A program made the position numbers and the translations under genes. The notes under the pieces were generated by a model. The model saw only the letters and a list, made by a program, of their open reading frames with translations. It searched no databases and was not told the DNA's origin. A stretch of DNA of 52,532 nucleotides, taken from assembly GCF_002259645.1 (NCBI RefSeq), contig NZ_MWWV01000017.1:1-52532 (forward strand), written 5' to 3'. Of the stretch, positions 38,651-52,532 are shown piece by piece. How positions within the stretch are numbered: the stretch's first letter is position 1; every line of letters starts with the position of its first letter. The stretch is from Bifidobacterium tissieri (GTDB taxonomy: Bacteria; Actinomycetota; Actinomycetes; Actinomycetales; Bifidobacteriaceae).

Positions 38651-39019
38651 TTACCGGCCAAAGCGACGACGACGGGCTGCAGTGCTCCAACCGGTTCTCG
38701 ACATATTCATACTCTTTTTGGCACTGTTGCTTCGTTGCTGCTGACTGGTGTTGGGACGCATGATCAGCTGAAGACCATCAAAATCTACCGGATCCCATTC
38801 CTGACCGCGCGTACGGAACTCCATCCCCTGCTCATTGTCCGCCGGATACACCATCACGGCACGTCCCTGGCCGATGTTCTCCAGAACCTGCTCCCACAGC
38901 AGTTCCCGCACACGCGCGGAAACCTTGCCGACGTACACGCCGGGAGAGATCTCGAACAGCCATCGTGTCAAATGCCCGCGCAGCCTCGGAGGCGAAACCG
39001 TCAGTACGATCACGATCAT
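38651..39019 (-). CDS. cas2: CRISPR-associated Cas2 (type I-E)
   Basis: Cas2e pairs with Cas1 in the spacer-integration complex. The 122-residue sequence MIVIVLTVSPPRLRGHLTRWLFEISPGVYVG, with later KVSARVRELLWEQV and GMEFRTRGQ, matches the I-E form. E. coli Cas2 is 94 residues. This one carries about 30 extra residues with a very basic end (AARRRRFGR). Its ATG overlaps the cas1 stop in an ATGA, so the two are translationally coupled. It is the last gene of the cas operon and ends next to repeat copy C. Confidence 0.95.
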   Translation of the reverse strand: MIVIVLTVSPPRLRGHLTRWLFEISPGVYVGKVSARVRELLWEQVLENIGQGRAVMVYPADNEQGMEFRTRGQEWDPVDFDGLQLIMRPNTSQQQRSNSAKKSMNMSRTGWSTAARRRRFGR

Positions 39020-40137
39020 GGCCGGCCTTCCGGAAATGCGGATTCGTCCATGACACCCAGATATTCGTTGCGAATTGACACGTCCGCCTGATCTACGACT
39101 GTGTCGATGCCAGCTACGAATTCCATATCGTTATCTACATATCCCGTCATAACCCCGTTCGAGTGATCAGCTCCGTCCCCAAGTGGCATCTCAGGAGAGT
39201 GATTCCGTCCTGCATCACGATATCCCGATGCGCCTGCCCATACCTGTGTGGTGATGTCCTGCACATCCAGCGACTCCTCGTCCAGTTCGTCGGCTGACAA
39301 CAGCAACGACCGGATGTCTTCCACGCATCGTCGCAGAAATCGTCCATCCTTCATGCGGTCGCGCATGCCGCGCCGAGCGGCGACGGAAACATCGGCAACC
39401 TGTGCGGCCACCAAATCAAAAGCCAGCGGAATCGTGATGTCCGCTTTGTACAGGTCGGCAATATCGTAGACGAAACTGCGCTCGTTGCGCGCATGGATAA
39501 ATCCCAATCCTGGTGAGCACCCCAACGCGACGATGACGGCATGCACCACCCCATACAAGGCGGTATTCACCGCAGACAATGCACGATTCACCTCGTCCGC
39601 GTCATCGAAATCAGACACTTTGTATGATCTACCTGACCAAGGAACCCCGGTTCGTTGCGATTCACGCTCGTACGCACGCCGGACACGGGTGCCTTCCTTG
39701 CCAAGCAGTTGCTGCATGGTCAAACCGTCGGTCGTCTCGTTGGGGAATCGCATCGCATACATGCGTCGCGCGACCTTTACCCGAGTGCGTTCGGAGGATA
39801 CCAGTTTGGCTTGAGCTTCAAGCAGTCTGGTTGATCGGGCGAGAGATGCGCCATGACAGTAGTAGCGCACGCCCCGCTCCCCCACCCAAATGCAGGTCGA
39901 GCGTGATTCGGCCAACAGGCAGATAGCCGCATAGGTTATGTTGCTGCCCGGCCCCAGCATCAGTACACTCAATGCAGCGGCCGGCACATGGACTGTGCCT
40001 CGAGCATCGGTGATCGTTACGGCGTTGTCCGCACGATTGACCACGCAATGTTCCGCGTACAGGAACGTCAGTCGGTCCTGTACACGAACCAGAGAAGTCA
40101 ACGGAGGCGGTTTGACACCAGGAATCCTGCGACCCAT
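39016..40137 (-). CDS. cas1: CRISPR-associated endonuclease Cas1 (type I-E)
   Basis: The integrase of spacer acquisition. The 373-residue protein has the I-E Cas1 pattern: LTFLYAEHCVVNRADNAV at the start, catalytic Glu in the RRAYERES helix, and His and Asp in GFIHARNERSFVYDIADLYK. E. coli Cas1 is about 305 residues. Here an acidic, Gly/Asp-rich tail of about 65 residues follows the core and has no recognised domain. It begins 65 nt after the cas6e stop and overlaps cas2 by 4 nt. Confidence 0.96.
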   Translation of the reverse strand: MGRRIPGVKPPPLTSLVRVQDRLTFLYAEHCVVNRADNAVTITDARGTVHVPAAALSVLMLGPGSNITYAAICLLAESRSTCIWVGERGVRYYCHGASLARSTRLLEAQAKLVSSERTRVKVARRMYAMRFPNETTDGLTMQQLLGKEGTRVRRAYERESQRTGVPWSGRSYKVSDFDDADEVNRALSAVNTALYGVVHAVIVALGCSPGLGFIHARNERSFVYDIADLYKADITIPLAFDLVAAQVADVSVAARRGMRDRMKDGRFLRRCVEDIRSLLLSADELDEESLDVQDITTQVWAGASGYRDAGRNHSPEMPLGDGADHSNGVMTGYVDNDMEFVAGIDTVVDQADVSIRNEYLGVMDESAFPEGRP

Positions 40138-40202
40138 CAGACACCTGCCTTCCCGAATTCCGGGATTATTACTATGACCTGCTCTACCGTTTCACCGTTC
40201 GG

Positions 40203-40871
40203 TCATTGCCGTTTGGGCAACGGCACCAGACTGAGCAGTCCGAAACCGTAGCCCTTGGCCCGGCCGATACCGCCGGTGAGTGCATGACGCAACAATTCAG
40301 GGTCGTCAACCGCGAGCACGCCGTCGTAGACCACAGATGCGAGTGTGATCGTCGCACCCTGACGTCTGAAATCCACCAGTCTGGAATCCCGAACCATAAC
40401 CTCCGGCATGCCAAGCCGATTGATGGGCATATGGAATCCCGATTCCTTCGCCTTGCGATGCAGCCATTCCAACTGGTCCTCCACGCGCGTCAATCCTTCG
40501 CGCTTACCGCGCACAGCCAGACTGCCCGACGCTTTGGACCGCGTGGGGTTGGCCTTGAGGCGAAAACCCCATTCCTGACCTATGGCGAGACGGTCCAGAA
40601 ATGGCTCATACGCGCATGTCGCCACACTATTCGGCCCGGCTCCAAGTTCCTCGAAGAGCACCTGCGCATCGGGAGTGACCGTGGACACGATATAGAGACG
40701 GTTTGGACGCCCGTTCCTGCCCACGTCAAGTCGCCATAGCACACGCTGACTACCATCATGACTGGAATCAACCGATCTAGCAACGATGGCGTGCAAACGT
40801 TCCAGCGACATCATTGCCCACCGCGCGTGACGGTGACGAGGATCGATGACGATTCGTGTGAACTGGGTCAT
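40203..40871 (-). CDS. cas6e: CRISPR RNA endonuclease Cas6e (Cse3/CasE)
   Basis: Cas6e cuts the pre-crRNA at the base of each repeat hairpin and stays bound to the crRNA 3' end in Cascade. The 222-residue protein has the N-terminal ferredoxin strand MTQFTRIVIDPR, a candidate catalytic His in LERLHAIVARS and the C-terminal G-rich loop GGIGRAKGYGFGLLSLVP. It overlaps cas5 by 4 nt (ATGA). Both normal repeats and the pseudo-repeats upstream of cas3 keep the stem that such an enzyme recognises, the latter imperfectly. Confidence 0.95.
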   Translation of the reverse strand: MTQFTRIVIDPRHRHARWAMMSLERLHAIVARSVDSSHDGSQRVLWRLDVGRNGRPNRLYIVSTVTPDAQVLFEELGAGPNSVATCAYEPFLDRLAIGQEWGFRLKANPTRSKASGSLAVRGKREGLTRVEDQLEWLHRKAKESGFHMPINRLGMPEVMVRDSRLVDFRRQGATITLASVVYDGVLAVDDPELLRHALTGGIGRAKGYGFGLLSLVPLPKRQ

Positions 40872-41698
40872 AGTTCCTCGCCTTCCGGATCAGCGATCGC
40901 ATCGAAGATCGCATCACCATCGAACAATGATTGGGGATACGCCACGTCGTTTCCGTTTTCAGGACTATCAGTAGAGTCGACAACTGGCGTATCGGGAGAT
41001 ACCGGACAATCCACGGTGGGTTCCGGTTGCGCATCATCCGGCAGACTGATGATCCTCCGCTGACGCCATTCCCGACGTCTGGGATCGAAACTCACCGGCT
41101 CATCGGCCAACGTATCCACAAACGTCCAGTCCAACTGTTCCTCGGAATTTGGTTCGATCATGATCCGTGCAAAACACCGTTCCGGGAACAATGACTCATC
41201 CCGGAGCGCCTTGCGCTGATACCACTCGGCGGCTCTCCATGGCGCATGTCGCAACGCGACCTCCAATGATTCCTCCGACATCCAGGTCCGGATGGGCCCG
41301 TCCGGCGGGCAGGATCGTCGTCCGAGAAATATCGGATAGTATGGCGAGCGCAACGCTTGCCGATATTCTTCGAGCCGTTCCTTGTCGTCACTTTCCAGTC
41401 CGACGAGGAACACGGCGTCCTGCAGATAATAGCGGTTGGATAGCGGCATCATCACGCCACGCTCGTTTTTGGCGGTTTGGTAGTCGCGTAACAGTGTTCC
41501 CGGCTGATCGGCTCGTACTCCGAACCGCAGTCCCTGAAATCGAGTGAGTGGTTCGTCACGTCCTATGCCCAATGCAGCCGCGATCATACCGATGACGCCG
41601 CTTTTGGTCGGCATCGCTTCGGTCTCGCGACGAGTGAACCGGCTGTTGGCCCCCCATGACTGCATGGGGGCGGCCAGGCGCATCAACAATACCGACAT
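40868..41698 (-). CDS. cas5: Cascade subunit Cas5e (CasD)
   Basis: Cas5e caps the crRNA 5' handle in Cascade. The start MSVLLMRLAAPMQSWGANSRFTRRETEAMPTKSGVIGMIAAALG is diagnostic, with the RF.RR.T..PTKSGV.G motif. At 276 residues it is longer than the E. coli protein (224), with a Pro/Asp/Ser-rich C-terminal tail of about 50 residues. A 3-nt gap separates it from cas7, and it overlaps cas6e. AGGAG lies 5 nt before the ATG. Confidence 0.95.
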   Translation of the reverse strand: MSVLLMRLAAPMQSWGANSRFTRRETEAMPTKSGVIGMIAAALGIGRDEPLTRFQGLRFGVRADQPGTLLRDYQTAKNERGVMMPLSNRYYLQDAVFLVGLESDDKERLEEYRQALRSPYYPIFLGRRSCPPDGPIRTWMSEESLEVALRHAPWRAAEWYQRKALRDESLFPERCFARIMIEPNSEEQLDWTFVDTLADEPVSFDPRRREWRQRRIISLPDDAQPEPTVDCPVSPDTPVVDSTDSPENGNDVAYPQSLFDGDAIFDAIADPEGEEL

Positions 41699-41701
41699 GT
41701 G

Positions 41702-42880
41702 CTACTCCTGATCCTGCACCGGGTCGGACAGTCGTTCACTGACGGTCGTCGTGATGCCGTCCAGCATCTCTCGCATGGACGTACGTTCGGCGAGCGCGTC
41801 AGCGGCTACCGTATCGTCACCGATACGTACAACCCAAGTCTTGACTGGGGTAATGCCGTAGACGTCGTCAAATTCCTGTTCGCGTCGGACCAGGGCCTTG
41901 GTAGCGTTCTGCACATAATCCGGTTCTACTGGACGTTCGAATGCACCGACGAGGTTCACCGCTTGGGTGTCACGCACGTTCACTATCGCCAGTTCGGGGA
42001 GAGTGCCGTGTGCAAACGTGTTGATCTTGCCTTGAGGCATGCTGGTCAGGAAGGCCTGAACGAATGCAGCAACGGCCTTGGCCGTGGCATTGGCGTCGCC
42101 TAGCGTGTCATTGAGCCGGTTGGCATCCACGTTCGCATATCGATAGAAGGTGGCTGCGTTGAATTCGATCTGGCCCATCATGGCGGCACCGGCATCGCCT
42201 TCCTCGTCGCTGTTCTGCTTGGCATCGTCCACGGCAGTGAAGAAATCCGATTCCGAGTCAACGGCCTGCACACTGATGGCATGCGCCACCTGAGCGGCCG
42301 CATCCACGTTGAGATCAGTGTCGTCCGCGACCATGCGGCCGAACAACGCCACGTCGATGGCCCGGTCGTCGGCAACGATCTGCTTGATGGTTTTCTTCGT
42401 CGATTTGATGAATTTAGCTGGGTCATCCTGTTCCAATGCCTCGACGACGATGTCGGTCAGGCGATCATACTGGCGATTACCCATGAACAGCAGGTACTGG
42501 GACTGCAGTAGTGCCTCATTGCCGTCATCTTCCGCGTTTTTCTTGGCACGGGGCTTGGCGAGTTTGATGCCGGCACCATCTTTCAGTACGGTTTCCGCAA
42601 GCTTGATGGCGAGTGCGTCATCCAAATCAGGGAGGCGTGCAAGGATGCGGTCGTGCAGTACTTCCACGACTCGCTTGGTGCGGACGCCAAGATCTTTGGG
42701 GTCGAGCAGGTCCTTGAACGTTTCACGAGTGGGGCGCTTCCATGCCTGACTGGAGACGCGGGCACGGGTGACACCACCGTATTCCACGGTCTTGGGACTG
42801 CCGGTGTCATCACGGTTCAGATTTCCTGCGGCGGTGGTTTCCAAAGCGTGGATTTCGATGATGGTGCGGTTTGTCGACAT
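41702..42880 (-). CDS. cas7: Cascade backbone subunit Cas7e (Cse4/CasC)
   Basis: Cas7e forms the six-copy backbone holding the crRNA spacer. The 392-residue sequence IIEIHALETTAAGNLNRDDTGSPKTVEYGGVTRARVSSQAWKR is the family signature (NRDD.G.PK...GG..RARVSSQ..KR). Further conserved parts are FGRMVADD, AIQVAHAISV-like AAQVAHAISVQAV and FAHGTLPELAIVNVRD. AAAGGA lies 7 nt before the ATG. A 103-nt gap separates it from cas11, the longest gap in the operon, which could hold an internal promoter or a processing site. Confidence 0.96.
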   Translation of the reverse strand: MSTNRTIIEIHALETTAAGNLNRDDTGSPKTVEYGGVTRARVSSQAWKRPTRETFKDLLDPKDLGVRTKRVVEVLHDRILARLPDLDDALAIKLAETVLKDGAGIKLAKPRAKKNAEDDGNEALLQSQYLLFMGNRQYDRLTDIVVEALEQDDPAKFIKSTKKTIKQIVADDRAIDVALFGRMVADDTDLNVDAAAQVAHAISVQAVDSESDFFTAVDDAKQNSDEEGDAGAAMMGQIEFNAATFYRYANVDANRLNDTLGDANATAKAVAAFVQAFLTSMPQGKINTFAHGTLPELAIVNVRDTQAVNLVGAFERPVEPDYVQNATKALVRREQEFDDVYGITPVKTWVVRIGDDTVAADALAERTSMREMLDGITTTVSERLSDPVQDQE

Positions 42881-42983
42881 GATTGTCCTTTCCGAAGAGG
42901 GTTGGTGGTGGTAACTGACTGTGGTTGAGCGTTAGAAGAATAGGTGTGGCAGCTATGCGGTGTTCAGCAACTGTCTCATGGCA

Positions 42984-43682
42984 TCATGATGCGTTGTTGG
43001 TTTCCTGATAATGGTAGGCGCTTTGGAAGTCGCGTCCCCAACGAGTGCGGACCACATTCGCCTGATTTCTGGTTCCTCGTAGGGCCAGCAGATCTTGAGC
43101 CAGCAGGCCATAGTTGATCGCGATGCGTTCCCGTTTGAGCAGAGTGATCAGCCCGCGTGAGTGCCGGACCAGCTCCTTCCAACTGCCGGCCGTCTGCAGT
43201 CGGTCGAACATGCTACGGATGCCGGACTCGTTGAGGTTTCCGTAGGCCATACGACCAACGGCGCGACCAAGCGAAACGTTCTCGTCCGTATGCGCCGACG
43301 TTTCATGGTTTGACTGTTGGTGCACCGCGAACAGGGTGACGGCGGCATGTGCAGCCTGTTCACGCGGCGATGGCCCGTTCTGGTATGGTGCCAGATTGCC
43401 AGCGATGTCGACATCGTCTATCGGAGGCATCGTCCACGCAAAGACCTCGGGGTCTGCACCCACGTCATGGCCGACGGCGTGGCGGAGTTTTGCTACGGCG
43501 GCCGTAGCGTAGGCCTCGTTCCCCAGATATCCGTTCTGCCGGACATGACTGGTATTGTCACGGTTGCTTTGACTGCCTTCGGCCAGTATCCGAACCGTCC
43601 GACTGACCCATTTCCCAAACGGTGTGAGTCGTATGTACCGTGGTTTTTCTCCGTTTTGTGGTCCGGGATGATTTCGTTCCAT
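42984..43682 (-). CDS. cse2: Cascade small subunit Cas11e (Cse2/CasB)
   Basis: Cse2 is the two-copy alpha-helical small subunit that stabilises the displaced DNA strand in Cascade. The 232-residue sequence contains the family pattern LRHAVGHDVGADPEVFAWTMPP near the middle of the N-terminal half, AAHAAVTLFAVHQQS, and the C-terminal LITLLKRERIAINYGLLAQDLL and WGRDFQSAYHYQ. AAGGAG lies 8 nt before the ATG. The gap to cse1 is 3 nt. Confidence 0.94.
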   Translation of the reverse strand: MERNHPGPQNGEKPRYIRLTPFGKWVSRTVRILAEGSQSNRDNTSHVRQNGYLGNEAYATAAVAKLRHAVGHDVGADPEVFAWTMPPIDDVDIAGNLAPYQNGPSPREQAAHAAVTLFAVHQQSNHETSAHTDENVSLGRAVGRMAYGNLNESGIRSMFDRLQTAGSWKELVRHSRGLITLLKRERIAINYGLLAQDLLALRGTRNQANVVRTRWGRDFQSAYHYQETNNAS

Positions 43683-43685
43683 GGA

Positions 43686-45428
43686 TCACATCTCCTTCCG
43701 AGTCTGTTCCGGTGCTTCGTCCGCGGTATTGTCTGAATCGACATCCTCCGACGTGGGGAAGATCGTGTTGAGTTTGCTGCGATACCATACTTCGGCGAGC
43801 GCGACGGAATAATGGCTGGTTTTGATGTCGCCGGCACTGGTCCGTATGGTGACGTCACGTCCGACGATCGCCCGAGGGGACGCTTGCGCGGCGAGTTGAT
43901 TGCCGAGACGGATCAGTGTCCGTCGGGCGATGGCACACCATTCATCATGTTTGATTGTCAGATCGTCATCGACGTCGAGTGTGACGACCCATCGTCGGAA
44001 TACCGAGTCGAACGTGGCGTATCCCAATTCGGATGCCCTCTGTCGTGGGGCTTCGACCGGCATGCCTTCAGATCGGGCGATATTGACTGCCAGATTACGC
44101 AGTGCGCCAATACCCTGATCAGTGAGATTCACCGCGCTACGCAGCATCTGTCCCATCTGGGGATCCTGCGTAGTCAGCACGGTAAGGTTCAGATCGAGGA
44201 AATCGTCGACCACGGAATCGACCACGGCCTCCTGATTGCCGTATTCGACACCGAAGGCATGAAGTCGGACGGGCAGATGCTCGTCTCCCAGTGCCTCGGT
44301 CAACCATTGCAATGTGTAGGGACGGATGAATGACGGCACAGCACCGGTATCGTCGTCCTCGCCAATGGTGAGCGTCGGCAGACCTCGCCACAGGGCCCGA
44401 GCCGGATCATGTTTACGCGGCATGTACACCAGCGGTCGTTTCAACGCCTTCTCCTGGGTTTCGCTGCGACGCCAGCCGCTCATCATCTCGAACCACTGGG
44501 CGTTCTGCGGTTTGAGACGGTCCCCGTTGCACATCAGCACACCGGTGACCTTCTGCCCCTCGTGTGCGAGCAACATACGACGGGATTGCCAGGTCAGCAG
44601 TGTTGCCGGGCCGTGGAAGCACCGCGTGTCGCCGGTTCTGTCCTGCGGCTGGTCGAAACCATCCGCCGCCTTCGCGGTATATGGTTCACGTTCCCAGACC
44701 GGTCTGTCATCCACCCACTCTGCGGCAGCTTCACCGAGTCCGAACACCTGCTGACTTACAAAATTCAGCATCAGCGTCTGCCACAAAGTTCTTCCCTCGA
44801 CCAGGTATCCGCCAAGATGGCCGGTCCACGCCACACCGATGGGATAGCCCTTGCCTCCCTTGACACGAGGATCACCCGCTGCCCCCGACTTGATGCCGGA
44901 CGCGTCATATGCCTGCACGGTTACCAGCCAGCGAGATGCCTCTGCGGCGCTCATGGCCTTCAACCCTTCACCGATGCGCGTGGTGAAAAACGGTTCGCCG
45001 CTGGGCACGTCCAGAACAAGTCGCTCCAGACCGGACACTTCGTGTTTGGCGGTATGCAGTCCCGCGACTTGATAGAACGGCGCTACCTTGTCGAATATAT
45101 CGAACCGATCATGATAACGGTCACAGTATTCACGGATCCGGCGAACGGTTTCAGGTTTTCCGGAGCCGCCGTCCAGCAGCCGACGCCAGTTTGCAGGACT
45201 GAGATCATTGCCATACACGCCATACAACGCACCGGTCAGAAAACGACTCAGAGTGAACCGCTGCAATGGAATATCGCCATCGATACTGCGGATCTCATCG
45301 GCACGCGTAAGCGTATCGACAATGGACAACTCAGCATAGGAACCATCAGACATCGTGACGGGAATCCATGCACGATCCATCAGGTTGAACGATGCTTCAT
45401 TGTCAGCGGCAAGCTCACTATTCGACAC
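43686..45428 (-). CDS. cse1: Cascade large subunit Cas8e (Cse1/CasA)
   Basis: Cse1 reads the PAM and recruits Cas3. The 580-residue sequence has the family features: FNLMDRAWIPVTMSDGSYAELSIVDTL at the start, PLQRFTLSRFLTGALYGVYG, then the FYQVAGL and GEPFFTTRIGEG region. A large C-terminal four-helix bundle follows. It is longer than the E. coli protein (502). The proposed GTG start lies within the last codons of cas3 (11-nt overlap), suggesting translational coupling. Confidence 0.94.
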   Translation of the reverse strand: MSNSELAADNEASFNLMDRAWIPVTMSDGSYAELSIVDTLTRADEIRSIDGDIPLQRFTLSRFLTGALYGVYGNDLSPANWRRLLDGGSGKPETVRRIREYCDRYHDRFDIFDKVAPFYQVAGLHTAKHEVSGLERLVLDVPSGEPFFTTRIGEGLKAMSAAEASRWLVTVQAYDASGIKSGAAGDPRVKGGKGYPIGVAWTGHLGGYLVEGRTLWQTLMLNFVSQQVFGLGEAAAEWVDDRPVWEREPYTAKAADGFDQPQDRTGDTRCFHGPATLLTWQSRRMLLAHEGQKVTGVLMCNGDRLKPQNAQWFEMMSGWRRSETQEKALKRPLVYMPRKHDPARALWRGLPTLTIGEDDDTGAVPSFIRPYTLQWLTEALGDEHLPVRLHAFGVEYGNQEAVVDSVVDDFLDLNLTVLTTQDPQMGQMLRSAVNLTDQGIGALRNLAVNIARSEGMPVEAPRQRASELGYATFDSVFRRWVVTLDVDDDLTIKHDEWCAIARRTLIRLGNQLAAQASPRAIVGRDVTIRTSAGDIKTSHYSVALAEVWYRSKLNTIFPTSEDVDSDNTADEAPEQTRKEM

Positions 45429-48400
45429 GTGTCACCCATCCCTTCGTCATTGAATATTGGAAGCGCAACGTTTTCATTGTCTCACCATCCTTTCCGGAAA
45501 CCTGTATTGGATATTCCGCTTTTCCATCGCCGTCCAGCACGATCAGCAATTGTCCTGCCAGACTCCGGTCCTGCTGCATATAGTCGAACCATTGCTGTGG
45601 CGTATTGCATTCCAGCGCGTTGATGACCGCATCAAGATTTTGGTAAGCAAGTGAGAACCGTGAAAGCGCAATGGTGCAGGATAGGATGTTTCGTACCTGC
45701 CTACGGTCCGGAACGCCCATGCCAGACGGCAATGGGCCCGTATCAAAATCTCCCCATGATGGCAGCTGAAGGTATCCATCGACATCTCTCTGCAGCACAA
45801 TAGCCTCGAACGAATCATCGCCCTCACGAACTCCGGTGGAACTCGGATGCTGCTGAACCGTGCCCGGTGCATCCGGATCCGGCATGGCTGTTTTCAGCCA
45901 GTCATCAAGCGTGAACGTTCCCCGGGGATCCTGAGGCTTGAAAATGCGGCTGCGATGAGCCTCACATTCACTCGCGTCTATGGTGTCCTGCAAGCTCTCG
46001 TATGCCACGATTTCCCCGCCATCTCCGCCCCTCCATGATTCTGGGCAAACGGGCACATCCCCATAAACGCTCTGCACCAGCCGAGGAATATCATCCGGTA
46101 CCGAAATCGTCGTTTCTCCGCCTTCGGGAATGTTCAAAACGGCAAGAGAACGCATCAGCAGATACCGGTGGTATACGCTTTCCAGTCCTCTGGCGAACTG
46201 TGGCGGATCCTGATCGGACTGTTGCACCACTCCCGATACGTACAATCGTGCCTTGCGCAATGGCAATGGCCTTTGGCATTCACCTTCGCCACGACGATGA
46301 CGATGCAGACGTCCCGATCGTTGCAAAATCAAGTCGATGGGCGCAATGTCCGTGACCATCATATCGAAATCAACATCCAACGATTGCTCCACCACCTGCG
46401 TGGCCACCACGACTCCAGACCGCTGACCGGAATCGCTGTTCTTGCCGTATCGATGAATCAGGTCACGATCGATACGAGCGCGGTCAAACGCCAAAAAACG
46501 GGAATGAGCCAATGTCACGTCCATGTCTAGTTTTCCCCGCAACACGTCATAGGTCTCCTGGGCACGGGAAACCGTATTACGGATCACGACGGCACATCCA
46601 CCATCTCGTAGCCGTTCACGCAACAGAGTAGCCAGAACGTCATTGTCATCGTCCAGCATTGATACGCAAATATCAGTGGAACGCCCCGACGCAGCAGGAG
46701 AGGAATCAACGATAGCGCTCTTTGTGGCCACTGAAATCAATGGATACCGCAGATCCAACGAGGACAGCACAGGGTTGTCGGCAGCGTTATTGCTCTCGCC
46801 AGTATTGTCGCCATTATCATTCCGACAACCGGGGTTCTTCTCGCAGGAATCATGTGACAATTGCCGTTCTGGATTAGGCTCCACCATGTCCACGGCAACG
46901 GCCCCTGATCTATACGCCTTCAGAAACGCCCTACGTTTGGTTTGCGGCAACGTCGCACTGAGCATGATGACCGGCGTGCCATACGCCCCCAACCATGACA
47001 GCACGGTCTCCATATATACGTTCATATACGCCGTGTTTGAATGGACCTCGTCAAGAATCACCACCTTGCCGGCGAGCGCCGCATGCCGTAACACGACATG
47101 TTTGCATTGCAATCCGGCCATGAGCACCTGATCGATGGTACCTGTCACGAACGTCGATAGATTGCCACGTTTGGGGCCGGTGAACCAGGAGTTCACCACG
47201 GCCTGCAATGTCATGCGATCATCTTCGTCGTTGCGCCCAGAATCGTCTTCACCGTATACAATGCCGTCGAATGGCCGATCGGCAAAACCCTTGTCAAGGC
47301 CATGCCCGTCATCGAACCACTGTTCACGCAACGTCTCATAGTCGTCGTTGAGTTCACGCTTACCATGCGCCAGAAACAGCGAAGCCATCATGCGTCTGTC
47401 TTCGGCAGGCAGATGACCGATCCAATCAAGAATACGTGTGAACATGGCATTGACCGTCGCCTGTGTGGGCAACGCGTAGTAGACACCACCACAGTGAAAT
47501 CGCGAAGCAAGAATCTCCGCGGCCAGCAGCGCGGCTTCCGTCTTGCCCTCCCCCATGTTTGCTTCAACGATCATCAGTCCGGGATCGGGCATGGTCTGCG
47601 CCATACGTATTGCTTCATATTGCACGGGACGGAGTTTCGCACCCGGAATATCGAATTGTTCGGCGAACAGACCATCTGCGGACTGATCGATTCCGGTCAC
47701 CTTCCATGGTTCCGGCAGCTGTAATCTGCGCCATGCGCGATCGGCACGACGACGAGGATCAAACAATTCCAGATCCGACTCCGATTCGTTCAGCGGGCAC
47801 AGTCGCGTATCGCTGGCGATCCAATCCGCGATGATCACCAGCGCAGTCAGCAGAATCAGCGTCCGCCGACGCAATGGATGATCTTTCAGGGAATGTAGAA
47901 GAGAGCGAATGTCGAGCGTATCCGCAATCCAGTCAAGGAATTCAGAACGCACGTCTGACCAAGATTTATCGCCGACGAAACCTTTGGCATTCCAAGAGTT
48001 CAACCACCGTTGCTTGTCTTTTGTCAATGACGTGCCATGATGACCGGCGACGATATCGGCAAGACCATGGGCAAACGTTCCCGAAGCGATTGGGAAATCC
48101 TGAGATCCCAGCCATTTCAATACGGCCTGATAGCCAACCAGTTCATGACGGTATTTACGACGGTCCTTATCCTTACTGAGGTTAGGTCTGATGGAGAAAC
48201 CCGCCATTTTCACGTAGTAGTCACGGTCTGATTTCACTACGAACGCAGGAGACGCCTTGCCGATATCATGGATTGCCGCAACGAACTGATACAGACGTTT
48301 TGCTGATTGATCGTCACCGACGTCCATGGCAATCAATCGCCGGACATCGTCGGCGACGAACTCGTCCCAGACCTTCAGTGCGATCTCGCCGGTATCTTCC

Positions 48401-48585
48401 ATGTGCTGCCATAGTTGCAGATAACGCTCATCGGTAGTGTCACGGAAAACGGTTTTCGCCCAAAATGAGAGAGCTCGTTCAGATAGCGGCGCGGGGATGC
48501 CAGACGGGAAATGGAAAGACCGCAAAGGGGCTGACTGTGAAAAGGACGATTCAGGAAAGCTCTCGGAGGCATGCACTTGGGACAC
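45418..48585 (-). CDS. cas3: CRISPR-associated helicase-nuclease Cas3 (type I-E)
   Basis: Cas3 degrades DNA marked by Cascade. The 1055-residue protein has an N-terminal HD nuclease (His106-Asp107 in AAIHDIGKASPAF, RHELVG near 147, GHHGTS at 181-186, ADWIASD near 254). The DExD/H helicase follows: EANMGEGKTEAAL (Walker A Lys348), ILDEVHSN (DEVH 512-515), MLSATLPQ and VATQVVEQSLDVDFDMMV. All catalytic motifs look intact. I choose the GTG at 48585 because an AAAGGAGG ribosome-binding site lies 9 nt upstream. ATG 48612 would place that site inside the gene. It is the first gene of the cas operon. Confidence 0.95.
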   Translation of the reverse strand: MSQVHASESFPESSFSQSAPLRSFHFPSGIPAPLSERALSFWAKTVFRDTTDERYLQLWQHMEDTGEIALKVWDEFVADDVRRLIAMDVGDDQSAKRLYQFVAAIHDIGKASPAFVVKSDRDYYVKMAGFSIRPNLSKDKDRRKYRHELVGYQAVLKWLGSQDFPIASGTFAHGLADIVAGHHGTSLTKDKQRWLNSWNAKGFVGDKSWSDVRSEFLDWIADTLDIRSLLHSLKDHPLRRRTLILLTALVIIADWIASDTRLCPLNESESDLELFDPRRRADRAWRRLQLPEPWKVTGIDQSADGLFAEQFDIPGAKLRPVQYEAIRMAQTMPDPGLMIVEANMGEGKTEAALLAAEILASRFHCGGVYYALPTQATVNAMFTRILDWIGHLPAEDRRMMASLFLAHGKRELNDDYETLREQWFDDGHGLDKGFADRPFDGIVYGEDDSGRNDEDDRMTLQAVVNSWFTGPKRGNLSTFVTGTIDQVLMAGLQCKHVVLRHAALAGKVVILDEVHSNTAYMNVYMETVLSWLGAYGTPVIMLSATLPQTKRRAFLKAYRSGAVAVDMVEPNPERQLSHDSCEKNPGCRNDNGDNTGESNNAADNPVLSSLDLRYPLISVATKSAIVDSSPAASGRSTDICVSMLDDDNDVLATLLRERLRDGGCAVVIRNTVSRAQETYDVLRGKLDMDVTLAHSRFLAFDRARIDRDLIHRYGKNSDSGQRSGVVVATQVVEQSLDVDFDMMVTDIAPIDLILQRSGRLHRHRRGEGECQRPLPLRKARLYVSGVVQQSDQDPPQFARGLESVYHRYLLMRSLAVLNIPEGGETTISVPDDIPRLVQSVYGDVPVCPESWRGGDGGEIVAYESLQDTIDASECEAHRSRIFKPQDPRGTFTLDDWLKTAMPDPDAPGTVQQHPSSTGVREGDDSFEAIVLQRDVDGYLQLPSWGDFDTGPLPSGMGVPDRRQVRNILSCTIALSRFSLAYQNLDAVINALECNTPQQWFDYMQQDRSLAGQLLIVLDGDGKAEYPIQVSGKDGETMKTLRFQYSMTKGWVTRVE

Positions 48586-48607
48586 GTGAACGTTCCTCCT
48601 TTGGAGC

Positions 48608-48626
48608 GACATTTTAACCTATGTCT
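48608..48626 (-). promoter_or_regulatory. Candidate self-target of the pseudo-crRNA in the cas3 promoter/leader
   Basis: On the minus strand AGACATAGGTT here is identical to the first 11 nt of the pseudo-spacer at 48691-48710. The match extends as GACAT...ATGTC with a 1-nt length difference. It lies 23-41 nt upstream of the GTG start and overlaps likely promoter elements (TAGTAAT just upstream, TAAAAT within). The 3 nt on its PAM side are AAT, one change from the usual I-E AAG. Bound Cascade here would block cas transcription. The dyad GACAT/ATGTC also fits an ordinary repressor operator. Confidence 0.5.
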
Positions 48627-48661
48627 ATTACTATGGAGAGTACCATCATCCAGAAGCGTCT

Positions 48662-48738
48662 GCAACCATCCCCGCAATTGCAGGGCAAACGACATATTAA
48701 ACCTATGTCTCGGAACACCCCCGTGCACGGGGAATCAC
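48662..48738 (-). ncRNA. Predicted CreR/CreA-like pseudo-crRNA (two degenerate repeats around a 20-nt spacer)
   Basis: Read on the minus strand (cas direction), pseudo-repeat 1 (48738-48711) has CCCCG-TGCA-CGGGG and ends GTGTTCCG, against ATGATCCG in the array (6 of 8). Next comes AGACATAGGTTTAATATGTC (48710-48691). Pseudo-repeat 2 (48690-48662) begins GTTTGCCC, is 29 nt long like the true repeat, and matches it at 21 of 29 positions. The 5' handle half of repeat 1 and the 5' half of repeat 2 are the best kept, as a processed crRNA would need. A TATAGG box at 48761-48756 could be its -10. Transcription is not shown. Confidence 0.55.
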
Positions 48739-48742
48739 AGGC

Positions 48743-49106: not shown

Positions 49107-51881
49107 GTTTGCCCCGCACACGCGGGGATGATCCGCCGATCTCATCGCCCACGGGTGGACGCTCGACGTTTGCCCCGCACACGCGGGGATGATCCGATCG
49201 GCTTCTGACCCTCCTCCCAATAACCAGAGTTTGCCCCGCACACGCGGGGATGATCCGATTCCCGCGACCTGCGCAAAGGATGAATATCGGTTTGCCCCGC
49301 ACACGCGGGGATGATCCTAGTCCTGTCCGCTGTCGGGGGTGATGATCCGGGTTTGCCCCGCACACGCGGGGATGATCCGCGCACGGGCCAAGCCAACAGT
49401 ACCGGATCCAGGTTTGCCCCGCACACGCGGGGATGATCCGACCATAGGCCCCAGTGAAATGGGTACGGACTGGTTTGCCCCGCACACGCGGGGATGATCC
49501 GGAATTGGGGCGTGTGGGTGTGGAGGATTGCACGTTTGCCCCGCACACGCGGGGATGATCCGGGCCCGCAGGGTGAGCAGGGGCCGCAGGGCGAGTTTGC
49601 CCCGCACACGCGGGGATGATCCGGGGCCGAAGGGTGACAAGGGTGATCCCGGTGCGTTTGCCCCGCACACGCGGGGATGATCCGTACGAGCGTAGGCCGG
49701 GCCAGCGCGGGCGCGGGTTTGCCCCGCACACGCGGGGATGATCCGGATTCGCCGTTGACGTCCACCGTCCACGCGGAGTTTGCCCCGCACACGCGGGGAT
49801 GATCCGCAGTTACATTACTCAATGGCATCTCAACATGTGTTTGCCCCGCACACGCGGGGATGATCCGGCCCGGTCAAGGGTCACCCATTTAGCACAGTAG
49901 TTTGCCCCGCACACGCGGGGATGATCCGCCTACCTCAACACGTTGAACCTGACACCGCAGGTTTGCCCCGCACACGCGGGGATGATCCGGCGCCGGGCGA
50001 CCCCGTGGTGTCCTTCAGCGCGTTTGCCCCGCACACGCGGGGATGATCCTAATGGAATTTGTCTGCGTTCTCACAGGCGACCTGTTTGCCCCGCACACGC
50101 GGGGATGATCCCTCCCCCCGGATAGGTACGTGATCGTGCCGTCCGTTTGCCCCGCACACGCGGGGATGATCCGTGCGCCACCAGACGCGGGTCAGCAAGA
50201 AGCCTGTTTGCCCCGCACACGCGGGGATGATCCGGACGTAATCAAAGGCACGCTGGTCAGCCTCCTGTTTGCCCCGCACACGCGGGGATGATCCGCTGAA
50301 TGGTTGGCCTCGCTAAAGGGGTTGGATGTTTGCCCCGCACACGCGGGGATGATCCGCGGTCCGCGGCACCGGGCTCGACGGGGGAAACGTTTGCCCCGCA
50401 CACGCGGGGATGATCCGATGGTCGCCGAAACCACACGCGAACTACTCAAGTTTGCCCCGCACACGCGGGGATGATCCGTCAGCGGCATCGTGGACGGCAT
50501 CAAGGGCCTAGTTTGCCCCGCACACGCGGGGATGATCCGCTCAAGCAGGACTATACGCCCCGTGAACTCACGTTTGCCCCGCACACGCGGGGATGATCCG
50601 GAGTTCGTGAGGGCACCATCTTGTGCGAGTTGGTTTGCCCCGCACACGCGGGGATGATCCGAGACGGCGGGGTGCTACCGCTCGGGAGGCTCCGTTTGCC
50701 CCGCACACGCGGGGATGATCCGAAACAACCATTGAAAAACAACCATTGAAAAACGTTTGCCCCGCACACGCGGGGATGATCCGTCATCATATGACAAATA
50801 TTGATAAAGGCTGGGGTTTGCCCCGCACACGCGGGGATGATCCCGCCTCGTGTGGGCGTGATGGTGCCGCCGGTGCGTTTGCCCCGCACACGCGGGGATG
50901 ATCCGGACACCGGTAGCCGATTCTTCGACCTGTCCGGGTTTGCCCCGCACACGCGGGGATGATCCGGCGTGGGCGGGCGTCAAATGAGCATGAATCCAGT
51001 TTGCCCCGCACACGCGGGGATGATCCGAGGATACGGCCGCGATCTCGCCGCCTTCCGTCGTTTGCCCCGCACACGCGGGGATGATCCGAACATGCGTTAT
51101 GAGATCACGACGGCGGCCGAGTTTGCCCCGCACACGCGGGGATGATCCGTGGGGCCGCGGGGGCTTGAACCCCGGACCGACGTTTGCCCCGCACACGCGG
51201 GGATGATCCGTAGGACGCGGCGAGGCCCCCGTGGCCGTTGGCGTTTGCCCCGCACACGCGGGGATGATCCGGTCGCCCGCGCCAAGGTACGGCCGCGTGG
51301 TGAGTTTGCCCCGCACACGCGGGGATGATCCGATGTGCACACTCATTAAGGCCATCGCCATCGAGTTTGCCCCGCACACGCGGGGATGATCCGGTGCGGT
51401 TATGAGTACGCGCGCATGGGTGCAGGTTTGCCCCGCACACGCGGGGATGATCCGACTGCCGTCATCGTTGACCGTGACGGTCAGCCGTTTGCCCCGCACA
51501 CGCGGGGATGATCCGGTCCTGGCTGGGATTGAGCGGCATGCGGTAGAGTTTGCCCCGCACACGCGGGGATGATCCGGCGACAACGGCCTCGTCTTCCGTG
51601 AAAACAACGTTTGCCCCGCACACGCGGGGATGATCCGAGTACAAAAGGGGAGTTTGGTGAGTACAAAAGGTTTGCCCCGCACACGCGGGGATGATCCGCT
51701 ATTCCGCAGCACCAGAACGGACAACAAGTGGTTTGCCCCGCACACGCGGGGATGATCCGTTCCGCATCCATACGGGTTTCCTCGCTTTCCTGTTTGCCCC
51801 GCACACGCGGGGATGATCCGTCCACGGCGGCGGGCTGGGCGGCGGCGCATTGGTTTGCCCCGCACACGCGGGGATGATCCG
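49107..51881 (+). CRISPR. Type I-E CRISPR array: 46 repeats, 45 spacers
   Basis: The 29-nt repeat starts GTTTGCCCCGCACACGCGGG and ends GATGATCCG, with a CCCCGCACACGCGGGG hairpin. I counted 46 copies starting at 49107 and ending at 51853, at a 61-nt period with a single 62-nt interval (50022 to 50084). The first 28 nt appear identical in every copy. Position 29 is G except at 49318 (T), 50050 (T), 50112 (C) and 50844 (C), consistent with that base coming from the PAM of each prespacer. Spacers are 32 nt (33 once). The last repeat is not degenerate, and an IS begins about 4 nt after it. The orientation is opposite to the cas operon. Confidence 0.98.
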
Positions 51882-51885
51882 TTCA

Positions 51886-52532
51886 GGGTTATAGGAACTT
51901 TTGTGGTGCTTATAACTGGCATCTGGCCTTGTGGCAGTAGGCGTGTCGGCTGGTTATTTTCGACGGCGGGAAAATAGCCGGCTTGTGCCATGGGTCGGGT
52001 GGTGGGCTGGATGTCGTGAGAACGAAATCCAGCAAGGCGAAGAAGTGCCCGATCTGCGGTCGGGCGATGAAGAAGAACGGCAGGACCGCGAAGGGCACCC
52101 AACGGTGGAAGTGTCCCGACTGTTCGTTGAGCTCGACGATGCCGCAGGAACGGGCCGCGCGGGCGCGCATGCTGGACGAATTCCTGACCTGGCTGCTGGG
52201 CAGGCAGCCGCAGTGTGCGATCGACCCGTCCGGTGACTCGCGCGCCCTGCGCAAGCGCACCGCCTGGTGCTGGAACATCCATCCGCGCATACCGTCCGTG
52301 ACGGCCAGGCATCATACGGTGATGGCGGACGGCACGTACATGGACCACGGCTGGTGCCTGATCATCGCCATCGACGGCGAGACCGGCGAGACGCTTGACT
52401 TCCAATGGTGCGGGCATGAGTCCAAGGCGGCCTACACGGCGCTGTTCTCGCGCATGCCCGCGCCGGACGTGCTCGTCACCGACGGGCTGCGCGGCGCGGA
52501 GACCGCCTGCCGTGAGACCTGGCCCGGCACGC
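51886..52532 (+). mobile_element. IS1249-type insertion sequence, left part (continues outside window)
   Basis: The element appears to begin at GGGTTATAGGAAC, 4 nt past the last CRISPR repeat, followed by a GTTATA...TATAAC dyad. A second imperfect hairpin (GGCTGGTTATTTTC with GGAAAATAGCCGGC, 51948-51982) sits before the transposase start and may limit its translation. The other end is outside the window, so the boundary is inferred. Confidence 0.6.
52016..52532 (+). CDS. IS1249-family (IS256-related) transposase, N-terminal part
   Basis: Open from GTG 52016 to the window edge (172 residues). It starts with a zinc ribbon (CPICGRAMKKNG...WKCPDCS, two CxxC pairs), then LDEFLTWLLG and RKRTAWCWNIHP, the N-terminal pattern of IS1249 transposases. 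Next come the first DDE Asp in MADGTYMDHGW and the second in VLVTDGLRGAETA. The catalytic Glu lies beyond the window. The ATG at 52011 is in another frame and stops at once. Confidence 0.85.
   Translation, partial: MRTKSSKAKKCPICGRAMKKNGRTAKGTQRWKCPDCSLSSTMPQERAARARMLDEFLTWLLGRQPQCAIDPSGDSRALRKRTAWCWNIHPRIPSVTARHHTVMADGTYMDHGWCLIIAIDGETGETLDFQWCGHESKAAYTALFSRMPAPDVLVTDGLRGAETACRETWPGT

Follow-up and report, generated by a model that had tools for sequence, protein, structure and literature searches.

The window, that is, the whole stretch of 52,532 nucleotides analysed here (Bifidobacterium tissieri, contig NZ_MWWV01000017.1), has at its end a complete type I-E locus, encoded by the minus strand, in which Cascade, processing and adaptation genes were recognised by PADLOC (8/8 proteins). 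The cognate effector and Cas6 genes (Cas3e, Cas8e, Cas11e, Cas7e, Cas5e, Cas6e, Cas1e and Cas2e; PADLOC) lie beside a small repeat unit that is placed between cas3 and the CRISPR array (Table 1). The open reading frame after the array (51881-52532) is transposase-like by eye and runs off the window end, and further copies of the array repeat were seen at the start of contig C12; the array may have been split by an insertion element. Comparison of the whole array with phage records gave five records (four at 60-80% identity and one 29-nt piece), and the 24-nt cores of 2 of the 45 spacers gave 0 matches each against viral contigs. The PAM reference for type I-E was taken from a published table (PMC8482600, Table 1) in place of array protospacers.

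Table 1. Features of the type I-E locus and the repeat unit, in window coordinates.
Feature	Position	Strand	Basis or remark
cas8e, cas11e, cas7e, cas5e, cas6e, cas1e, cas2e	38651..45428	-	PADLOC match for 7/7
cas3	45418..48585	-	PADLOC Cas3e, 8.1e-201; Pfam Cas3_HD; ORF open from ATG 48612
Ribosome binding site AGGAGG	48595..48600	-	Sequence; favours GTG 48585 as cas3 start
Seed target AGACATAGGTT	48616..48626	-	Before cas3; psiS nt 1-11 recur here; single genome-wide match
Target PAM, AAT	48627..48629	-	Sequence; AAN in 15/15 promoter-targeting units
Putative cas3 promoter TTGCAG-17-(TGG)TACTCT	48637..48665	-	By eye and by position relative to relatives; weak
psiR2 (pseudo-repeat 2), 29 nt	48662..48690	-	21/29 identical to array repeat; candidate 3' hairpin of RNA
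psiS (pseudo-spacer), 20 nt, AGACATAGGTTTAATATGTC	48691..48710	-	Seed nt 1-5 and 7-11 match site before cas3
psiR1 (pseudo-repeat 1)	48711..48739	-	Degenerate, shortened loop; 3' end is handle-like GTGTTCCG
CRISPR array	49107..51880	+	46 exact repeats, 45 spacers; strand opposite to unit

Anatomy of the unit and its match before cas3

The unit occupies 48739-48662 of the minus strand and consists of psiR1, psiS and psiR2, in agreement with an earlier note on this DNA, which had described two degenerate copies of the array repeat in opposite orientation, the second of exactly 29 nt and 21/29 identical. psiR2 was the best ungapped match to the array repeat in window positions 1-48999 (array excluded), and since the runner-up already reached 20/29, its identity by itself is weak evidence. 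A relaxed repeat pattern run over the whole 2.87-Mb genome gave 87 matches (control 0). Of these, 86 carry the sequence of the array itself and lie on contigs C9 and C12, and the remaining one is psiR2, the sole ectopic repeat found genome-wide by this pattern. psiR1 is more degenerate, yet it retains the handle-like GTGTTCCG and a 6-bp hairpin. Folding gave hairpin energies of -9.4 kcal/mol for psiR1 and -10.7 kcal/mol for psiR2, and the pair scored 41.9 on a repeat-plus-stem score (2-nt shift allowed for each repeat); 100 pieces of 1300 nt drawn at random from the window reached at most 17. When the whole 81-nt RNA was folded, the best structure was a long-range helix joining both repeats and not two hairpins, which counts against the reading as a creR gene, as does the strong degeneracy of psiR1. 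With its 21/29 repeat, 20-nt spacer and opposite strand, the unit departs from a canonical array of near-identical repeats and 32-33-nt spacers. Its ectopic degenerate repeats around a short spacer beside a cas operon are the arrangement of CreR, a cas-regulating RNA (Liu et al. 2023, Cell Host Microbe, as cited in PMC12737573).

The first 11 nt of the spacer recur before cas3 with AAT in the PAM position, again as the earlier note had it, and seed plus PAM (AANAGACANAGGTT) had one match in the whole genome (control 0). The seed target lies 31-41 nt before GTG 48585; the start of the longer cas3 reading frame, ATG 48612, adjoins the seed match and is without a good ribosome site. In haloarchaeal CreA the proven minimal seed is exactly nt 1-5 and 7-11 (PMC8501985), and scored at these positions the window's match is 10/10, before the genome's own cas operon and behind its AAT PAM, as in CreR. 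None of 2000 shuffles of the region reached this score, and the 45 real array spacers never exceeded 8/10 seed positions on the same DNA. Beyond nt 11, guide and target are mismatched at 12 and 15-20 (ungapped), a limited complementarity of the CreR kind by which the target would be bound rather than destroyed.

A consensus promoter scan found no promoter-like site for the unit or for cas3 in the window, a further point against a creR gene. The best formal score in the window belonged to a pair other than the one in Table 1, with a -10 TAAAAT at the target (P 0.30 versus shuffles). On a looser scan the cas or fic promoter beat shuffles (P<0.05) in 4/15 promoter-targeting units (L038, L041, L048 and L050; loci of the family comparison are cited by L numbers), the window not being among these, and the unit's own promoter did so in 1/20 units (L076).

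Guides and targets across the family

Of the 189 genomes of the family, 47 had matches in a cas3 search, at 50 places in all, and the 49 places outside the window were fetched. A unit of two repeats on the cas3 strand was present in 20 of the 50 cas3 upstream regions (the window and 19 relatives); units were pooled from scans and reading because a strict pair scan missed several that were evident on reading. No unit was found in the other 30 loci, a set taken irrespective of subtype in which some are cut by contig ends. The boundary of each unit was set at the handle-like end of psiR1, the target was sought mechanically over 190 downstream positions, and nt 1-5 and 7-11 were scored. The share of units having a target is biased upward, because some units (e.g., L038, L039, L041 and L050) were picked out by eye while the target could be seen. 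Cleaner in this respect, a first automatic pass over non-array candidates with a repeat score of at least 19 gave n=8, namely seven units (all with AAN) and one inverted repeat (L078).

Same-strand seed scores at the own locus were 10/10 in nine of the 20 units, 9/10 in five, 8/10 in one and 6-7 in five that belong to one spacer family. Among the 15 matching units there are 12 different spacers, and the targets lie just downstream of the own unit. When spacers were swapped between loci (348 trials), a score of 10 was reached in 0 trials, 9 in 1 and 8 in 50. The 12 pseudo-spacers match their own downstream regions far better than each other's, which supports the CreR/CreA-like reading of the earlier note; its proposed alignment across type I-E loci, meant to reveal whether seed and target co-vary, came out clearly positive (12 spacers, AAN PAMs).

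In a phase test, omission of positions 6 and 12, the ones that Cascade leaves out, gave nine perfect matches, and five other six-apart pairs gave 0, 0, 1, 0 and 0. Position 6 is mismatched in 12/15 and position 12 in 14/15 promoter-targeting units; these positions were unscored, so the mismatches denote absence of constraint only, and it is the phase test that carries the argument. AAN precedes all 15 targets (12 distinct spacers), although the PAM was not used as a search criterion; counted by distinct spacer, the PAMs are AAG (8), AAT (2), AAC (1) and AAA (1). The type I-E PAMs in Table 1 of PMC8482600 include AAC (Bifidobacterium), AAG, AAT, AAA and AAN. Shuffles run for each unit gave P values no higher than 0.002 where the match was perfect (nine units), of 0.004-0.0235 where it was 9/10 (five units) and of 0.0825 for L038, which is non-significant by itself without the PAM and reaches 0.0065 with AA. 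psiS is 20-21 nt long in 18/20 units and 32-33 nt in two. A length of 20 nt is 12 shorter than 32, that is, two Cas7 steps of six.

Judged by eye, the PAM falls 7-11 nt past the likely -10 in the window, L038, L039, L042 and L043, the target overlaps the likely -10 in L041, L047, L048 and L050, and it covers the likely -35 in L049. Targets with an assigned promoter position thus sit at spots where a bound complex should halt RNA polymerase.

Several elements were set aside. In L074 two unit-like repeats enclose a 20-nt spacer on the opposite strand from cas3, some 200-280 nt ahead of its first candidate start; the best nearby target of this element is 9/10 behind CGG, a search over 700 nt with the spacer start where expected gave no AAN-preceded target of at least 8/10, and the element was not counted. 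L085 has half a unit with a best target of 8/10, none convincing, and the array-like repeats before cas3 in L055 and L072 were likewise not counted as units. In L044 the unit's target is followed by a 173-aa open reading frame (298-819, minus) placed ahead of cas3 and overlapping its start; this frame had no Pfam or PADLOC match.

The five units with scores of 6-7 (L073 and L075-L078) have the seed TCTRTGTTTCG in common and entered the count as units that lack a target before cas3, where none was found in any of the five genomes. With position 6 free, seed plus PAM had exactly one match in each genome, each behind AAC. The reversed control pattern had 4 matches in the same genomes, so one match per genome is not telling by itself and it is the place of the match that tells. 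This target (L090-L094) lies in the last codons of cas3, on the other strand, and the next gene, which is cse1 by Pfam (2/2 tested of five), starts about 80 nt further on. Spacer and target agree at the variable nt 4 in 5/5 (A in two genomes, G in three); in related species the target stretch forms part of the cas3 coding region, and the five genomes are therefore counted as one event. Cascade would act here as a roadblock ahead of the Cascade genes.

Fic genes behind units in relatives

In L038, L039, L042 and L043 the unit and its target are followed by a complete Fic gene that heads the cas operon and ends 4-6 nt before cas3. The seed scores of these units are 8, 9, 10 and 9 of 10, respectively. 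The Fic motif HPFxDGNGR is present in 4/4 and the Pfam Fic domain in 2/2 tested (L038 and L042), and the protein from L042 (P0001) is SoFic in PADLOC (1.4e-66). P0001 also contains SSQIEN, which fits the inhibitory motif that class II Fic proteins have at the N terminus; the protein may thus be self-restrained rather than a plain toxin. The L046 sequence begins inside such a Fic gene (truncated). In L040 and L045, apparent remnants of a Fic gene end just before cas3 and no unit was found, an apparent loss of the Fic-unit module.

P0001 matched 29 genomes: five are the cas-linked Fic loci, 16 gave further Fic upstream regions that were scanned, and 8 lie outside the comparison. One of the 16 (L103, G133:C13:36000-37600; B. 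vespertilionis) has, on the contig that also carries cas3, a stand-alone Fic gene with a second same-strand unit of its own, from locus base 1122. The target of this unit, preceded by AAA and 63 nt upstream of the Fic ATG, scores 10/10 and is the only match in the G133 genome (control 0); the Fic ATG lies 119 nt past the psiS start. The other 15 of the 16 regions had no same-strand pair at a scan threshold that would also miss the L039 unit, and opposite-strand pairs before Fic in L107, L108 and L113 had no target of at least 9/10. A weak opposite-strand pair was seen before Fic in L101.

With Fic heading the cas operon behind a target in four species and the stand-alone B. vespertilionis gene equipped with a second unit, we consider it an even bet that the crRNA-like units of the Bifidobacteriaceae are a general switch guided by Cascade and that a Fic (SoFic-type) effector has come under its control repeatedly. 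If Cascade were lost or inhibited, Fic would then be set free as a backup or addiction module, and the window's creR would be the Fic-less form. No module joining Fic and CRISPR regulation was found in the literature searched, which was covered in part.

Probable autorepression by a CreR and competing explanations

The unit is most probably a creR gene through whose guide RNA the host's type I-E Cascade represses its own cas operon (probability about 0.9). Under this reading stand the anatomy of the unit, the complete effector gene set, the unique seed and PAM match and the co-variation in the family, and it is strongly supported because of the comparison across the family. How the RNA is transcribed and processed, how it binds and represses, which promoter is used exactly and what the physiological trigger is are inferred as follows. 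The creR gene, a minimal degenerate CRISPR, would be transcribed from the minus strand, and Cas6e would cut the transcript into a crRNA-like RNA with the handle GUGUUCCG, a 20-nt guide and a 3' hairpin derived from psiR2. Loaded onto the host's own I-E Cascade, this RNA would pair through its seed with one site behind the AAT PAM, which coincides with the -10 region of the cas3 promoter or follows it closely. Since the match ends at the seed, the complex would stay in place and block RNA polymerase, leaving cleavage by Cas3 unlicensed. A feedback loop is predicted to result, in which abundant Cascade represses cas3 to cas2, and array crRNAs or an anti-CRISPR that divert Cascade derepress the operon.

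The earlier note had offered as an alternative that both copies, being dyads, could be two operators of a repressor; in the form weighed here, a protein that represses cas3 would bind the two as a pair, and the likeness of the flanks to repeats would be incidental. Both copies, in spacer and target, do form the GACAT...ATGTC dyad that it described, their likeness extends past the seed if one gap is allowed, and GACATNNGTTN3-5ATGTC matches only these two places genome-wide (control 0); for the window by itself, paired dyads are a fair description. However, the spacing of the arms differs by 1 nt between the copies (9 and 8), and dyad arms common to spacer and target occur in 1/15 promoter-targeting units, that of the window; the other 14 keep the repeat flanks and the seed match. 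The dyad is thus not conserved before the orthologous operons, as an operator pair should be, and operators account neither for the AAN PAM nor for a match that follows nt 1-5 and 7-11, nor for the flanking hairpins. The earlier note had also held that relatives keeping the dyads and losing the repeat-like flanks would speak against a guide RNA; what was found is the reverse, flanks that stay and a dyad in 1/15. We regard paired operators as very improbable.

An antitoxin RNA of the CreA type, whose true regulated gene is a toxin and whose repression of cas3 is a side effect, could draw on the similar units that precede Fic genes in relatives. The window's only genome-wide seed and PAM site, however, precedes cas3, and the unit-linked Fic protein P0001, which was the toxin searched for genome-wide, has no homologue in the window genome at E <= 1e-40. 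With a single target, and that before cas3, the unit falls outside CreTA and CrePA, where the regulated target is a toxin gene, and an antitoxin has a very small chance of being the answer. It is just as hard to credit that the unit is a functionless, decayed fragment of an old array in opposite orientation whose promoter match is a leftover self-targeting accident: its repeats are degenerate and array-like repeats do precede cas3 in L072 and L055, but the spacers are 20-21 nt in 18/20 units, not 32-33, the seed match is retained with 12 different spacers and conservation lies mainly in the seed, and a dead remnant is rejected because it leaves the co-variation unexplained.

The preferred reading, a creR gene, can be set beside known systems. 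Like CreR, the unit is a degenerate mini-CRISPR beside cas genes that has a cognate Cascade and matches the cas promoter region, behind a PAM, by its seed only; unlike CreR, the units of the Bifidobacteriaceae are known from sequence alone, comprise many different spacer-target pairs, and may have their target before cas3, cse1 or a Fic-cas operon. Autoregulation by scaRNA or long tracrRNA with Cas9 likewise reuses the effector as a transcriptional repressor via limited pairing. It differs in being Class 2, in having no Cascade and in lacking a comparable pair of degenerate repeats (scaRNA is also mentioned in PMC9458426). With CreA of the haloarchaeal CreTA the unit shares the psiR1-psiS-psiR2 anatomy, the seed at nt 1-5 and 7-11 and a strongly diverged psiR1 (psiR1 sequences of CreA are especially diverged; PMC9458426), whereas the window unit is without a known toxin RNA gene and its target precedes cas3 itself. 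CrePA couples CreA to a protein toxin, CreP, which has a KilA-N domain and acts on FtsZ (PMC12737573). There, too, a crRNA-like RNA represses a protein gene, with which the Fic-linked units L038, L039, L042, L043 and L103 may be compared; the gene of the relatives is Fic/SoFic, however, and has no homologue at E <= 1e-40 in the window genome.

The novelty that the earlier note implied is reduced, since a 2026 review already lists type I-B, I-E and V-A systems as autorepressed by CreRs (PMC13131331). An autorepressing CreR in type I-E is thus published, and what is new here is a further case with unusually clear co-variation of guide and target. No report of CreR together with Bifidobacterium was found in the literature searched, which says nothing on journals outside it.

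The family preserves a natural record of guide-target co-variation, with 13 distinct pairs before cas genes and one before a Fic gene. These pairs obey the PAM and the flipped-out sixth base, which makes CreR detectable by a simple rule. Fic proteins are a possible new class of Cascade-repressed effectors, the freshest lead of this work, although it lies in relatives and outside the window; if the proposed switch is real, Fic would be a new effector class for RNA-guided repression. For bifidobacteria, the locus offers a system in which control of cas expression by the level of Cascade and by anti-CRISPRs can be tested, which is relevant to editing with the endogenous type I-E system.
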